A DNA stretch of 64,000 nucleotides from Psychroserpens mesophilus (GTDB lineage Bacteria; Bacteroidota; Bacteroidia; Flavobacteriales; Flavobacteriaceae). The notes under the pieces were generated by a model. That model was not told the DNA's origin and did no database searches. It worked only from the letters and a program-made list of their open reading frames with translations. The position numbers and the translations under genes are program-made. The stretch lies in assembly GCF_000826645.1 (NCBI RefSeq), contig NZ_JXJP01000008.1, positions 124,001 to 188,000 on the forward strand, in the 5' to 3' direction. Below, one piece after another: positions 44,558 to 50,153 of the stretch (positions are counted from its first letter, which is position 1; every line of letters begins with the position of its first letter).

Positions 44558-46858
44558 TTACCAATACAATCGAAACATAAGGTTAGGTGTAAATCCTATG
44601 GAGAATTTATCAATCACTTCAATCTCATTATTAAAGTCATTGTTTCCGAAATATTCTCTACTTATTAGATTATTCTTATTGTAAACATTCCTGATTGAAA
44701 GTCCGATCTTACCTTTAATTCTAGAGTTTTCCGAAAAACTGAAACTATAGGTTGAAGAAAAATCCAGACGATGGTAATCTGGCAAACGCTTGGTATTAAT
44801 TCCATCATTAAATTCAAGTCCATCAGCACCAAGAGTCGATGGTGTATATGGTTTTCCTGTTTGCCATCGCCAACCTAAAGCCACTTGAAAATTTGAAATT
44901 TTATAACTCAATGATGTTGCTACAGAATGAATCACATTTGATCTTGATGTAAATGCATTGTTATTATTCAGGTTACGATAGGTGCTTTCCGAATTATTAA
45001 ATGAATAACTCACCCAAGAGTTGAACCCATTAAAGCGTTTTCGTAAAAACACATCAACACCATAACTATTTTGCTCGCCTAAATTGAACTGACTGTTTTG
45101 CGGATTCAAAAAACCCAATGACAAGGCTGTTATATTGTCTAAAGTTTTATAGTAATTGTCGATATCGATTGTCCATCCATTATTGGTATAAATGAACCCT
45201 AAAGACACTTGCTTACTGTTTATAATTGGAAAATCGTTACCATTTGCCAATCGCCAGAGTCTGTTCTCTAAAGATAAATCGCTAATTACTGTTTCATCAA
45301 TTTCACTGATGATTTGATTTTTAATCTCACCAGAAACCTGAAGTTTGACATTCTTAAATAATGGCTTGAATACTAAGAGTCGAGGTTCAAAACGATAGGC
45401 ATTTAACTCATCAAAATAAGTTGCTCTTGCACCAATAGACACATCAAATAATTTCGGATTTCTATAATCGTATTGCGCATATAAACTGTGGGTTTGCACT
45501 ACAGATTCATCCTGATCTAAAATAAATTCCAGATTACTTGTGTTTTTAAAAATATAACCAACATCCTTAAGCACATATTGATATCCTAAAGTCAGAATGT
45601 TATTTGAATTAATTGTTTGCTCAAACTCTGTTGAAACTCCAGAATCGAAAATTAGATTTCGCTTTTCAAAATGCGATGTTTCCTCATTAGCTTCAGAAGT
45701 GATGTAATTATAATCCAGTTCATAATCTGAAAAGAAGGCTGAAGTCATTTGCTTTAGGTTAGCATTCCATTGTGTATTCCAACCTAAACTATAACCTCTG
45801 TTTGTAATCGACATACGATCATTAAATGATTGATTTGTCTGAGAATTATTTACTGTGTAATCCAACTGATTATCAATTGAAATTATACTCGCAAACATGC
45901 TGTTATTTTCGTTTGGTTTATAATTTAATTTGATATTAAAATCTAAAAAACTGAAATCATTACCAGGATTATTTCCATTTGCAATTTTAGTACTCTCAAA
46001 TACTTTATCTGCCAGTCTATCAAAAGTAACCGACTGATATAAATTGGTATAACTTGATCTCACAGAGGCTTGAACACCTAATTTTTCTTTAACAATTGGT
46101 ACGTCTAGATAAGCATCAGCATTTATACCATTAAATCCGATTTGAGCTTTTAAATCATCTTCAATAGTTGAATTGGTAGTCATTGAAATCACACTCGAAG
46201 CACGTTCTCCATATCTTGGATGTGAACCTTTATTGATGAAATTCACATTTTTAGTCGCATTAGGATTGAATGGAGAAATCATTCCGAACAGATGCCCTTT
46301 ATGATAGATATTTATGCCATCCCAAATGAGTCGGTTTTGATCCATCTTTCCGCCTCGAACTAAAAACCCAGAAGCTGTTTCGTTCGGACTCACAACACCT
46401 GGTAATAATTGAATACTTTCTAAAACATCTGGCTCTGTAAGTCCAGGTAAAATACCAAGATGTGTTGGATTGATTTGGTACGAACCATCTTTGCGTTTTG
46501 AAATACCTTTGGCTAAATAACTATTGACAATTACTCTATCTAATTCTTGAATATTAGCTTCTTCATTGTTATTATAAACAATGATGTACCTATTGTCTAA
46601 AACTTCAAATTTAAGGCTGGTTTGTATTTCAATTTCTGAAAGCACCTCCTTTAAAGAGCGTTTTTCCCGTTTTAGAGTTACAGTTTTTTCCCCTAAAACA
46701 GAATCGTAATATGAAAAACGAACGTCATAAACCTCTTCAATAGTTTCAAAAGCTGTTTGTAAAGGAGTTGAATTGAAACTCATATACAATTTAGCCTCTT
46801 CTTGCGAAAAGGCTAAATGTGGTAAAACTACCAAAAAGCAAATAATCAATTTTTTCAC
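44558..46858 (-). CDS. STN-domain TonB-dependent receptor of a FecI/FecR locus
   Basis: A 766-residue outer-membrane receptor starting at GTG 46858, which overlaps the fecR stop codon by GTGA (46855-46858), so the pair is translationally coupled. After the signal peptide (MKKLIICFLVVLPHLAFSQ) is a secretin/TonB short N-terminal (STN) domain (LYMSFNSTPLQTAFETIEEVYDVRFSYYDS), the signalling domain that contacts FecR-type anti-sigma factors. The plug contains PGVVSPNETASGFLVRGGKMDQNRLIWDGINIY and the barrel ends with NLMFRLYW. No SusD-like gene accompanies it. It is probably a signal-transducing receptor; the ligand is unknown. Confidence 0.93.
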   Translation of the reverse strand: MKKLIICFLVVLPHLAFSQEEAKLYMSFNSTPLQTAFETIEEVYDVRFSYYDSVLGEKTVTLKREKRSLKEVLSEIEIQTSLKFEVLDNRYIIVYNNNEEANIQELDRVIVNSYLAKGISKRKDGSYQINPTHLGILPGLTEPDVLESIQLLPGVVSPNETASGFLVRGGKMDQNRLIWDGINIYHKGHLFGMISPFNPNATKNVNFINKGSHPRYGERASSVISMTTNSTIEDDLKAQIGFNGINADAYLDVPIVKEKLGVQASVRSSYTNLYQSVTFDRLADKVFESTKIANGNNPGNDFSFLDFNIKLNYKPNENNSMFASIISIDNQLDYTVNNSQTNQSFNDRMSITNRGYSLGWNTQWNANLKQMTSAFFSDYELDYNYITSEANEETSHFEKRNLIFDSGVSTEFEQTINSNNILTLGYQYVLKDVGYIFKNTSNLEFILDQDESVVQTHSLYAQYDYRNPKLFDVSIGARATYFDELNAYRFEPRLLVFKPLFKNVKLQVSGEIKNQIISEIDETVISDLSLENRLWRLANGNDFPIINSKQVSLGFIYTNNGWTIDIDNYYKTLDNITALSLGFLNPQNSQFNLGEQNSYGVDVFLRKRFNGFNSWVSYSFNNSESTYRNLNNNNAFTSRSNVIHSVATSLSYKISNFQVALGWRWQTGKPYTPSTLGADGLEFNDGINTKRLPDYHRLDFSSTYSFSFSENSRIKGKIGLSIRNVYNKNNLISREYFGNNDFNNEIEVIDKFSIGFTPNLMFRLYW

Positions 46859-47781
46859 TTTAAGTTCAAATAAATGTTTCCTTTTTCTTTTTCAAAATAT
46901 TGTATCTGTAAAGATTTAAAAACTGTTTGCAATGCAGTGTCCAAATTTTCATGAGTAAAACTACCCGTATAAATAATATTTGTATCAATAGCATCTGAAT
47001 GAATATCAATATTGTATTGCGATTCTAAAGCTGAAATGACATAGATCAAAGGCACACTTTTAAAACTACTTTCGCCATGAATCCAACTCGGATTAACATC
47101 AGGATTATTCCATGTTTCGATAGCATTTCCGTTGATTCGTCTCACAGAATTTGCAGGCAATAACATATAAGTTTCATCTTTAATAGCAACGCTTACTTTT
47201 CCTTCAAAACAAACCACTTCAAAGTAATCATTAACCGTGTTGACGTTAAATTGTGTTCCTAAAACCTGAACCTTGCCATTTTCGGTTTCTACAGTAAAGG
47301 TGCTTCCTTTTTTAACTTTAAAATAAGCCTCTCCTTTTAGTTGAAGTTTACGATTAGTTTCCCAGTTGTCTTCGTTGTAAGTTAAGGTAGATTTGGAGTT
47401 CATAATAACTTCAGAACCGTCTAACAAAGCAATGGTTTTTTGTTCACCATAACTGGTTTCAATGCTTACCATATCATTTCCGAGAATTGAAAATAATCCG
47501 AAAAACAACACAATAGACGCTGCAATACCAATTAGCCATGGATTGGTATGTAATTTACGAACGTTTCCTTTTTTATTGGAAATCTGCTCTTGAATTTTAG
47601 CAAATGATGTTTCAGTAGAAGCCTCTAAACCATCATAAATTTCAAGACCTTTTCTGATTTTTAAAAACGACTTGTAATCGTTTTCAGAAACCAATGCTTT
47701 GAGCTCAATATCTGAGAGTTCTCCTTCCAGCCATTGTGCTAAAAAGGTATCATTTGTATTATGTGATTCTTTATCTTTCAT
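46855..47781 (-). CDS. FecR-family anti-sigma factor / sensor
   Basis: A 308-residue single-pass protein. A cytosolic N-terminus (about 1-80, TFLAQWLEGELSDIELKALV) is followed by one transmembrane helix (NPWLIGIAASIVLFFGLFSIL), then a FecR domain (SIETSYGEQKTIALLDGSEVIMNSKSTLTY... KLQLKGEAYFKVKKGSTFTVETENGKVQVLGTQFNVN) and the DUF4974-like C-terminal domain (FKSVPLIYVISALESQYNIDI, YTGSFTHENLDTALQTVFKSL). It would relay the receptor signal to the upstream sigma factor. A candidate promoter for it lies at 47798-47824. Its stop overlaps the receptor start. Confidence 0.94.
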   Translation of the reverse strand: MKDKESHNTNDTFLAQWLEGELSDIELKALVSENDYKSFLKIRKGLEIYDGLEASTETSFAKIQEQISNKKGNVRKLHTNPWLIGIAASIVLFFGLFSILGNDMVSIETSYGEQKTIALLDGSEVIMNSKSTLTYNEDNWETNRKLQLKGEAYFKVKKGSTFTVETENGKVQVLGTQFNVNTVNDYFEVVCFEGKVSVAIKDETYMLLPANSVRRINGNAIETWNNPDVNPSWIHGESSFKSVPLIYVISALESQYNIDIHSDAIDTNIIYTGSFTHENLDTALQTVFKSLQIQYFEKEKGNIYLNLK

Positions 47782-47797
47782 GGTTTTCTAATAATAT

Positions 47798-47824
47798 GAC
47801 AACTGGATGATACAAAACCCTACT
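47798..47824 (-). promoter_or_regulatory. Candidate ECF promoter facing fecR
   Basis: On the minus strand, AGTAGGGT (47824-47817) and GTTGTC (47803-47798) are separated by 13 bases. The -10-like element ends 16 bases before the fecR start. The same two blocks with the same 13-base spacing occur in the opposite direction at 48406-48432, before the divergent lipoprotein gene. It lies just after the sigma-factor stop. Confidence 0.65.
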
Positions 47825-47837
47825 TTTAATTACAATT

Positions 47838-48377
47838 TTATACATGACCAATATGTTCTCTTATGACCAACAAAGCTGAATGCATTCGTTTTTCGACCGC
47901 TTTAATAGAAATACCAAGAAGCTCAGCAATTTCCTTGTACTTCTTTTTTTCAATTCTATTTAGCAGGAACACTTCTTTTTGTTTTTCAGGTAGCGAATTG
48001 ATCGTACGCTCTAACTTATCCATAAACTCCTTTTCTAACAGTATAAATTCGGGAGTTTCATTGGTTTGCTGATTTGAAATACCTTCACGATGTTTTCTTA
48101 CGACTTTTTCATGTTTTATGGTATTTAAGAATGTGTTTGTAGCTACAGTAAACAAATAGCTTTTGGCTTTATTATAATTAACCTTACTACAGTTATCCCA
48201 TAATTTTATAAACGTGTCTTGCAATATGTCTTCAGCCTGATCAAGATCCTGAGTTTTAAAAAAAATAAAACGTCTTAAATCCTTAGCGTACATTTTGTAG
48301 AGCGCTTCAAAAGTTTTTGAATGGCAAATATTTTGTTGATCTTTAGGCATTGGCTGTGTTAGAAATCGATGTTTCAA
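47838..48377 (-). CDS. FecI-like ECF sigma factor
   Basis: A 179-residue ECF sigma factor. Region 2 spans ALYKMYAKDLRRFIFFKTQDLDQAEDILQDTFIKLWDNC and KAKSYLFTVATNTFLNTIKHE; region 4 spans LPEKQKEVFLLNRIEKKKYKEIAELLGISIKAVEKRMHSAL. A later in-frame ATG at 48350 (MPKDQQN) may be the true start. Located directly upstream of fecR and a STN receptor, it is the typical FecI partner. Two candidate promoters of one type flank its gene and suggest that it drives fecR-receptor and the divergent lipoprotein. Confidence 0.93.
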   Translation of the reverse strand: MKHRFLTQPMPKDQQNICHSKTFEALYKMYAKDLRRFIFFKTQDLDQAEDILQDTFIKLWDNCSKVNYNKAKSYLFTVATNTFLNTIKHEKVVRKHREGISNQQTNETPEFILLEKEFMDKLERTINSLPEKQKEVFLLNRIEKKKYKEIAELLGISIKAVEKRMHSALLVIREHIGHV

Positions 48378-48405
48378 AACTAACTAAAAAATAATTAGAG
48401 AAAAA

Positions 48406-48432
48406 AGTAGGGTATTTTTTTTAAGCGTTGTC
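48406..48432 (+). promoter_or_regulatory. Candidate ECF promoter facing the lipoprotein gene
   Basis: AGTAGGGT (48406-48413) and GTTGTC (48427-48432) are separated by 13 bases, identical to the element at 47798-47824 in both blocks and spacing. The -10-like block is 47 bases before the ATG of the lipoprotein at 48480. The intervening bases differ apart from the AT-rich start, so the match is not a plain duplication. Confidence 0.65.
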
Positions 48433-48479
48433 TTAGTTATGATTAATCGCCAAAAAAATACATTAACCATAAAATTTCT

Positions 48480-50153
48480 ATGATGAAAAATTTTAAATTA
48501 ATACTTATAAGTTTTGCTATGATTGCAGGCTTATTTACATCCTGTTCTAATAACGATTCTATAGTTGAAGAGCAAAATATTGATAAAACTGAAGCTATAA
48601 CAGAATCCCTAAACCGACTTGCACAACAATTTAATGCTCAAGGCGATGTCATTCCATCGGCAAACCCATCGGGAAATATTGTATTTGATTACTGTTTTGA
48701 TTTTGTGTATCCATTAAACTTATCATATAATAATGGCACTACAGTAAGTGTAAGTAGTTTAGACGATTTGATTACAATTTTAATCAATTCAACAAACGAT
48801 TTATTCATTGATGGCGTTGAGTTTCCATTTCATGTTGAAACTTATAACGGTTCTGGAGCTATTGAAATAGTGACTATTAACAATGAAAATGAGTTTTATG
48901 ATTTGTTAGAAAGTTGTGATTTTGACTCGGTTAACACCTGCGAATGCTATGAAGTATTTGATCCTGTTTGCGTTGAAATTCAAGCTCCTGATGGTGAAAC
49001 ATTCACAATAACATATCCGAATGAGTGCTATGCCTTGTGTGATGGATTTACACCTAATGATTTTATAGAAAATTGTGTCAATGATTATAACAATCCTGGT
49101 GGGAATAATTGTTTTGAATTTGTGTTTCCATTAACAATAGTTACTAATGAAAATGTAACTATTACCGTAAATTCTCAGGCTGAATTAGACAATGCCCTAT
49201 ACAATGCTTACTATTTTGATTTTGTATATTCATTTGATGTTGTTGTAAATGATGAACTATTAACCATTGGAAATGAAGAAGCGTTTATAGCACTTTTAGA
49301 GTATTGCGACAGTAATGGTGGCTGTCCATGTCCTGGAGTTGTAGAGCCAGTGTGTGTTGAAGTTGAATCTCCGAGTGGAAATATCGAAATTATAACATTT
49401 TTAAATGCTTGTGAAGCCGAATGCGAAGGGTTTACAGAGGCAGATTTTGTAGATTGTGAAACTCAACAAGGACCATGTAATGAGCAAGAAATTATTCAAA
49501 ATTTAATTGAATGCACATGGCTTGCAAATACAAGTTTATTAAACAATATTATTGGATATGAGTTTAATATTGATGGCACTTTAATGCTAACAACTAACAC
49601 AGGATCTAATGAGCCTATTAATGGTACATGGAGTATTGAGACCAATACTGGCACTGGCGAAGTCTATATGTTTTTTGATTTACCAGAACCATACAATGTA
49701 GTATCAGATTTAGACTGGACTGTAACGGTTTGTGAAGCAAATGGCGTATTAATTTTAGAATCAGGAGATGAATCGATAATTTTTACACAAGATTGTAATG
49801 TGAATAATCCAGGTGAATGTAGTGAGCAAGAATTATATGCTAATTTACTGCAATGCAACTGGTATATGAATACAAGCCTTTATGATACTGTAAATGCCGA
49901 ATTAGCACAATTTTTTCAAAGCGGAATTATAGAGATTACAAGTGAAGGAACAAATCAAACGGTTGGTGGTGACTGGTGGTTGACATCAAATCCATCACAA
50001 GGATTTATTTTAATGTCATTTAATATTACAAGTTCACCATATAATGAATTTTCGCAATACGACTGGATTGTAACTGAATGTAATGAAGGCTATGTTTTCT
50101 TGACATCTGCTGATGGCAATGAATTTATCCAGTTTGAACGGTTTTGCAATTAA
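48480..50153 (+). CDS. Lipoprotein with two Kazal-like modules and two repeated C-terminal modules
   Basis: A 557-residue predicted lipoprotein (Cys22 in GLFTSCSNN). I do not recognise the whole protein. Two similar blocks of about 125 residues follow each other. Each has a YxFDFVYPL / CFEFVFPL unit with a later LLE-C motif (about 72-146 and 211-276) and then a Kazal-like module (154-199 and 282-326). Its cysteines are spaced C-x-C-x7-C-x18-C-x3-C-x10/11-C around PVCVE and N-C-x3-C. The C-terminal part has two similar lipocalin-like units (about 333-439 and 447-556; ECTWLANTSLLNN / QCNWYMNTSLYDT ... DLDWTVTVCEANGVLIL / QYDWIVTECNEGYVFL). It is divergent from a FecI/FecR/receptor set and preceded by a matching promoter element. 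Function unknown; a surface role is inferred. Confidence 0.8.
   Translation: MMKNFKLILISFAMIAGLFTSCSNNDSIVEEQNIDKTEAITESLNRLAQQFNAQGDVIPSANPSGNIVFDYCFDFVYPLNLSYNNGTTVSVSSLDDLITILINSTNDLFIDGVEFPFHVETYNGSGAIEIVTINNENEFYDLLESCDFDSVNTCECYEVFDPVCVEIQAPDGETFTITYPNECYALCDGFTPNDFIENCVNDYNNPGGNNCFEFVFPLTIVTNENVTITVNSQAELDNALYNAYYFDFVYSFDVVVNDELLTIGNEEAFIALLEYCDSNGGCPCPGVVEPVCVEVESPSGNIEIITFLNACEAECEGFTEADFVDCETQQGPCNEQEIIQNLIECTWLANTSLLNNIIGYEFNIDGTLMLTTNTGSNEPINGTWSIETNTGTGEVYMFFDLPEPYNVVSDLDWTVTVCEANGVLILESGDESIIFTQDCNVNNPGECSEQELYANLLQCNWYMNTSLYDTVNAELAQFFQSGIIEITSEGTNQTVGGDWWLTSNPSQGFILMSFNITSSPYNEFSQYDWIVTECNEGYVFLTSADGNEFIQFERFCN

Follow-up and report, generated by a model that had tools for sequence, protein, structure and literature searches.

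The window analysed here, a 64,000-nucleotide stretch of Psychroserpens mesophilus DNA (contig NZ_JXJP01000008.1), carries the gene for a modular lipoprotein that diverges from the genes for a FecI-type sigma factor, a FecR-type relay and a TonB-dependent receptor; this gene order recurs in relatives, and a rare promoter-like motif precedes both the lipoprotein gene and fecR. We moderately favour the reading that the four genes form a FecI/FecR/FecA-type surface signalling cassette, which has the surface lipoprotein as its dedicated output and probably also as its partner, tied to the cassette by modules that we call N. Bacteroidota often have FecI/FecR/receptor systems, a large share of them with no known signal or target.

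Gene linkage and a rare promoter-like motif

The first-pass annotation of this DNA, made from the sequence alone, placed the lipoprotein in a sigma/anti-sigma/receptor locus, and all three partners were recognised by family models. FecI matches TIGR02985 with 137.6 bits (cut-off 126.4) and both Sigma70_r2 and r4_2 over cut-off, FecR matches PF04773 (E 1.9e-20) and FecR_C (PF16344), both over cut-off, and the receptor matches the barrel model over cut-off and the Plug model with 24.0 bits (cut-off 23.9). Its N-terminus is of the signalling type, with residues 25–93 matching FecR_C over cut-off and STN below cut-off (E 0.027). No NCBIfam model matched the 766-aa receptor, and no model matched the N-terminal sigma-binding part of FecR in the general Pfam scan. 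The three genes lie on the minus strand, and the start of fecI is probably the ATG at 48350, because the fecI open reading frames (ORFs) of many relatives encode 170 aa.

The lipoprotein gene diverges from fecI-fecR-receptor in 20/20 close relatives fetched and in five of the eight distant loci. Most of the close relatives that carry a name belong to Psychroserpens and Winogradskyella. A second collection comprised 59 loci, 46 of them with fecI diverging from the lipoprotein gene and fecR behind it, 9 with a lipoprotein match without fecI and 4 with single short module matches only; many of these loci are orthologous to, or partly from the same species as, the first set, so that the counts are not independent. 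Within the genus, 19 of the 23 genomes pair the lipoprotein with a receptor orthologue (at least 67% identity), and the other 4 have neither, their receptor paralogues reaching at most 34% identity. The neighbouring dps and oxyR genes were dropped as candidate members of the system; they are absent from the flanks of three loci (L120, L124 and L125) that retain the cassette.

The alignment of 47 intergenic regions revealed a shared bipartite motif, GTAGGGT-N14-TTGTCTTA, directed toward the lipoprotein gene, and a conserved CAAAACTA beside fecI. Read toward fecI, the latter is TAGTTTTG and fits TAnnTTTG, which we take to be the consensus of the Bacteroidota housekeeping -7 box. A scan of the 3.68-Mb genome found one exact site of the bipartite motif (lipoprotein), one site with one mismatch (fecR) and four sites with two mismatches, all four within ORFs, with two of them falling in addition within the 250 bases that precede another copy of a tandem lipoprotein gene. 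These tandem, closely similar genes (L140/L141, at about 455–456 kb of contig C1 of the same genome) encode lipoproteins of about 200 aa; the two-mismatch version of the motif sits within the gene itself, ahead of the copy that follows. At up to three mismatches there was no wider enrichment (89 genome sites versus 148 for the reversed control pattern), while the window count of 2 compares with 0.11 in shuffled sequences, where 1 of 100 shuffles reached 2. With at most two mismatches allowed, the fecR site is present in 46/46 fecI-bearing loci of the second collection and the lipoprotein site in 43/46; among the three misses, L103 is an ORF-start artefact with the motif present in the alignment, and L115 and L125 have three mismatches.

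The FecI-type promoter that had been proposed for the lipoprotein gene thus stands as a predicted promoter, with twin copies at the locus, conservation in relatives and scarcity in the genome. We infer that both motifs are promoters of this FecI, and the simplest reading would be that the sigma factor serves the lipoprotein and the fecR-receptor units and little else. Two lipoprotein genes of other loci, L109:5922-7473 (0 mismatches) and L052:8942-10191 (1 mismatch), carry the motif with no adjoining fecI, and the genome of L052 has the cassette elsewhere (L053); the sigma factor may therefore have an additional target at another place in a genome. The paralogous loci L060, L061, L069-L072, L074, L075 and L078 have promoter variants of their own (GGTAGGA..., TCAGGAG... 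or TTGGGACA..., with TTGTT or CTGTT), which suggests that sub-branches of the FecI cassette may run as parallel circuits in one cell.

The linkage extends beyond the branch with cysteine modules. Paralogous FecI/FecR/receptor loci often have a divergent lipoprotein composed of N and lipocalin-like (Lc) modules with no Kazal module; among 20 such paralogous loci that were read, lipoproteins with N modules were present at ten, in one case at a distance of 1.3 kb and without Lc. An N-region profile built from 13 non-Kazal N-module proteins of paralogous loci matches 178/249 Flavobacteriaceae genomes and 171/235 genera. Among 70 strong matches from 70 genomes, 30 taken by score and 40 hand-picked down the list, fecI is divergent in 70/70 (66/66 without the four loci that seeded the profile), and Lc modules occur in all 70 and a Kazal module in none. 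Genomes with only a weak best match gave a mixed picture (of 16, 4 have a divergent fecI, another 2 a FecI-like ORF in the same orientation, 1 a receptor-like ORF and 9 nothing in the flank). The 61 of the 70 loci in which both gaps were readable share a bipartite motif between the gaps with a mean score of 13.5/15, against 12.7 for gaps of other loci, 12.3 for reversed and 12.2 for opposite-strand controls; these are averages at a fixed 14-base spacer, with no significance computed and with some low-complexity artefact pairs among them (e.g. L180 and L181). A link of the homologues to FecI/FecR loci, as the first-pass annotation had surmised, was hence found in the close relatives, in the second collection and in the wider family.

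Table 1. Features of the lipoprotein locus (positions in the window).
Feature	Position	Strand	Basis
Lipoprotein gene, N-K-N-K-Lc-Lc, 557 aa	48480..50153	+	ORF, sequence, profiles
Signal peptide with lipobox Cys22	48480..48545	+	sequence; acidic residue close behind Cys
N module 1, residues 72-146, module common to the wider family	48693..48917	+	profiles
Kazal-like module 1, residues 154-199, P1-equivalent Glu158	48939..49076	+	alignments, profile and structure comparison
N module 2, residues 211-276	49110..49307	+	profiles
Kazal-like module 2, residues 282-326, P1-equivalent Gly286	49323..49457	+	alignment, profile search
Lipocalin-like module 1, residues 333-439	49476..49796	+	profiles, structure comparison
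Lipocalin-like module 2, residues 447-556, lower model confidence	49818..50147	+	profiles, structure model
ECF-type (extracytoplasmic function) promoter motif GTAGGGT-N14-TTGTCTTA toward lipoprotein, predicted	48407..48435	+	intergenic alignment, genome scan
Second motif copy, 1 mismatch, in fecI-fecR gap, toward fecR and receptor	47795..47823	-	genome scan
TAGTTTTG, fits -7 box TAnnTTTG, toward fecI	48375..48382	-	conserved in intergenic alignment
fecI, FecI-type ECF sigma factor, likely start ATG at 48350	47838..48377 as listed	-	Pfam, NCBIfam
fecR, FecR-type signal relay	46855..47781	-	Pfam, NCBIfam
TonB-dependent receptor, N-terminal FecR_C/STN-like domain, 766 aa	44558..46858	-	Pfam

Modules of the lipoprotein

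The lipoprotein ORF begins with ATG, and profiles built in this analysis resolve its product into the six modules of Table 1, where N denotes the Y/C-FxF-V-PL unit noticed at first pass, K the cysteine module of Kazal-like type and Lc the module that resembles lipocalins; Kazal matches were masked when N was annotated, so that N does not extend into K. According to the profile annotation, all 48 aligned proteins of the Kazal branch start with N-K, and the remainder is reshuffled, with up to five K and zero to two Lc modules. No Pfam or NCBIfam family matched the lipoprotein over cut-off, no PADLOC model at E ≤0.01 and no SusD model of Pfam or NCBIfam at E ≤1, and a terminator scan 3' of the gene found none. 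As read from the sequence, the signal peptide ends in ...LFTSC22 followed by SNNDS, and Asp or Glu stands at position +5 behind the lipid Cys in 43/48 homologue rows as parsed. An acidic residue close behind this Cys resembles the export signals of Bacteroidota surface lipoproteins (available part of PMC5080379), and the protein is therefore expected to reach the cell surface.

Module 1 reads C-x-C-x7-C-x18-C-x3-C-x11-C and module 2 is identical save for the final x10; the cysteine spacings and residue numbers given at first pass were exact. In the full-length alignment of the 48 homologues, Cys156, Pro162, Val163, Cys164, Asn181, Cys183, Ala185 and Gly189 are invariant, and Cys154, Cys187 and Cys199 are kept in at least 90%. 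The homologues were chosen by homology and not by cysteine pattern, and this conservation argues that the module is more than a chance arrangement. An alignment of 124 modules likewise has invariant Cys and Asn, partly by construction, since the selection pattern demands both, and also invariant Ala185 and Gly189, which are absent from that pattern. The Kazal hallmark of six Cys, PVC and an Asn two residues before Cys4 is present in module 1 across the 48 homologues, and the disulfide pattern of Kazal domains is 1-5, 2-4, 3-6.

Two profile comparisons point the same way. A PDB-wide profile search gave ten matches at E ≤10, nine of them Kazal inhibitors (best E 0.0018, three below 0.01), and hhalign against one Flavobacteriales domain that scores over the Pfam Kazal_2 cut-off returned a probability of 96.3 and E 1.5e-9 in this single comparison. 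Pfam itself was silent: hmmscan found no Kazal model for the lipoprotein (E ≤1) or for eight relatives (E ≤10), and PF07648 has no match in the genome; its Kazal cut-off is a conservative detection rule rather than a structural definition. The Pfam search suggested at first pass therefore failed as such, while profile comparison outside the Pfam models found Kazal inhibitors. The structural check was similarly divided, in that Foldseek with the module model had a top E of 1.4 and no Kazal chain among the best 50 of 228 rows, whereas a second look at the model with VIA was led by Kazal chains, which were among the 512 candidates given to it. The spacing between Cys3 and Cys4 is 17–18 in 90/99 Flavobacteriaceae modules versus about 10 usually, and modules with a spacing of 13–14 bridge the gap.

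The Kazal call is thus supported, with caution on function. Neither of the outcomes named at first pass as speaking against it, a structure prediction lacking a Kazal-type fold or homologues lacking a FecI/FecR link, was obtained, although Foldseek by itself gave no Kazal chain among its best 50 rows. Judged by sequence comparison, the modules represent a bacterial line of Kazal-type domains which escapes the Pfam models, within a lipid-anchored mosaic that differs between species. Their nearest known kind are the non-classical Kazal inhibitors, such as the leech-derived tryptase inhibitor (2kmo, 1ldt) and the sea-anemone elastase inhibitor (1y1c); compared with these, the bacterial modules have eight additional residues separating Cys3 from Cys4 and a mostly acidic P1 residue, and they are set in a lipid-anchored bacterial mosaic. 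Kazal-like modules were also seen, 3–10 per protein, in Saprospiraceae/Chitinophagales proteins with a Por secretion tail (L129, L131, L132 and L133), three of which have PKD domains.

The two lipocalin-like modules predicted at first pass are supported by structure comparison of the model, with an unspecific match. High-probability rows of a Foldseek search with the full lipoprotein model against the PDB are mostly lipocalin-like (low-probability sliding-clamp rows were set aside), and potempin E is equalled or surpassed by ordinary lipocalin-like proteins and by designed barrels; the resemblance to the Tannerella forsythia potempins (8ehc, 8ehd) is accordingly not specific. Genes for potempins stand immediately ahead of a protease gene (available part of PMC7296668), and no such pair was seen at this locus.

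Proposed circuit and alternative readings

In the circuit that we propose, fecI would be made from a housekeeping-type promoter, and a signal at the receptor would pass through the receptor N-terminal domain to FecR and free FecI, following the FecI signalling logic described in the part of PMC9249621 available to us. Freed FecI would transcribe mainly the lipoprotein gene and fecR-receptor, each from its own copy of the GTAGGGT-N14-TTGTCTTA promoter, and the amounts of the lipoprotein and of its sensor would thus rise in step. The N modules would bind the receptor of their own locus in the manner of SusD-type lipoproteins; these modules were present in all branches of the family that were looked at, and on this ground we regard the lipoprotein as a likely receptor partner. 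The C-terminal array, which varies between species, would face outward, and the Kazal modules of this branch, with their mostly acidic P1, may serve for binding or may inhibit Glu/Asp-specific endopeptidases. Weighing against a strict need for the lipoprotein as receptor partner, two paralogous loci beside ffh (L059 and L076) keep the cassette and a promoter-like motif and have no lipoprotein gene, possibly through loss.

The arrangement has the FecI-type sigma factor, the FecR relay, the receptor with an N-terminal signalling-type domain and the predicted sigma-type promoter motif ahead of the receptor operon in common with the ferric citrate system FecI/FecR/FecA of Escherichia coli and its relatives (available part of PMC9249621). 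It differs in having a divergent modular surface lipoprotein instead of transport genes and in the place of the motif, which sits inside the operon of the regulators, in the fecI-fecR gap. That review does not use the term lipoprotein in its accessible main text. SusC/SusD, the receptor-lipoprotein pairs of Bacteroidota, likewise have a lipoprotein encoded with a TonB-dependent receptor, whereas here the genes are divergent and a SusD match is missing. No description of this sigma-lipoprotein system was found among the titles and abstract openings listed by searches of an open-access library; the nearest is Flavobacterium johnsoniae, where phosphate depletion induces sigma/FecR loci with lipoproteins (PMC8115612), the available part of which has lipoproteins and sigma/FecR regulators in common with our locus and does not mention the N-module family.

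A rather unlikely alternative gives the lipoprotein the role of an output alone: it would be a surface shield of protease inhibitors built from Kazal modules and potempin-like barrels, switched on when the receptor senses something else, for instance a siderophore or a peptide, and would not contact the receptor. A protease inhibitor in the usual sense, which the first-pass annotation considered beside a binding protein, is not supported by the P1 residue, presumably the second after Cys2, as set by alignment with the leech inhibitor. P1 is Asp or Glu in 73/99 parsed Flavobacteriaceae modules (4 of the 99 read Cys there, probably through mis-parsing) and in 10/24 others, and Lys or Arg in none. 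An acidic P1 is ill-suited to trypsin-, chymotrypsin- or elastase-like targets, and the typical role of a trypsin inhibitor is weakened accordingly; the modules may fit Glu/Asp-specific enzymes or plain binding, inhibition being suggested by resemblance. Variability is slightly higher in the P1 loop than elsewhere in the module, as it also is in the binding loop of real inhibitors, which is no proof of inhibition. No Kazal inhibitor with Glu at P1 was found in the open-access library searched, and the available part of a glutamyl-endopeptidase review (PMC5508998) has nothing on Kazal inhibitors. The missing Pfam Kazal recognition likewise tells against inhibitors in the usual sense. The unspecific barrel match also counts against a shield, as does the family-wide part being the N module, with no Kazal module in the 70 sampled members.

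Clearly less probable is that the hyperacidic lipoprotein would be a cation-binding (calcium or metal) surface protein tied to a metal-related receptor, with the disulfide-rich modules only stiffening it. The mature protein has 3 Lys+Arg versus 88 Asp+Glu; its Lys+Arg content is 0.6%, whereas the 56 window ORFs average 10.8% and the second-lowest value is 3.7%, and 48/48 Kazal-branch homologues lie at 0–2.1% Lys+Arg and 14–32% Asp+Glu. Such depletion would leave almost no trypsin sites. Sixteen examined relatives without Kazal modules are also acidic (18–37% Asp+Glu), and FecI/FecR/receptor systems are classically iron-related (available part of PMC9249621). However, Lys+Arg spans 0.9–10.9% in the same 16 proteins, and a low content is accordingly not a trait of the system as a whole. 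That the six-cysteine modules are unrelated to Kazal domains, a private disulfide-rich fold with convergent spacing, is very improbable: the Pfam and Foldseek negatives and the long Cys3–Cys4 spacing would fit it, whereas the PDB-wide profile matches, hhalign, VIA and the bridging spacings speak against it.

Taking the signalling cassette with its dedicated lipoprotein as the preferred reading, a bolder extension, which we regard as an unlikely speculation, would see Flavobacteriaceae-wide self-contained sensing devices, each with one sigma factor driving one lipoprotein together with its own anti-sigma factor and receptor from a private promoter. The N module would lock on the receptor, the variable array would serve as exchangeable bait, and contact with a foreign protease or other protein would be the signal for more bait. 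Besides the Kazal module, the surprising part is a compact and widely conserved sigma-lipoprotein circuit. Gene order, co-occurrence and a rare motif tie a lipoprotein family to the cassette, which allows a small regulon to be proposed from sequence alone, and this proposed regulon would make the function of FecI-linked receptors directly testable.
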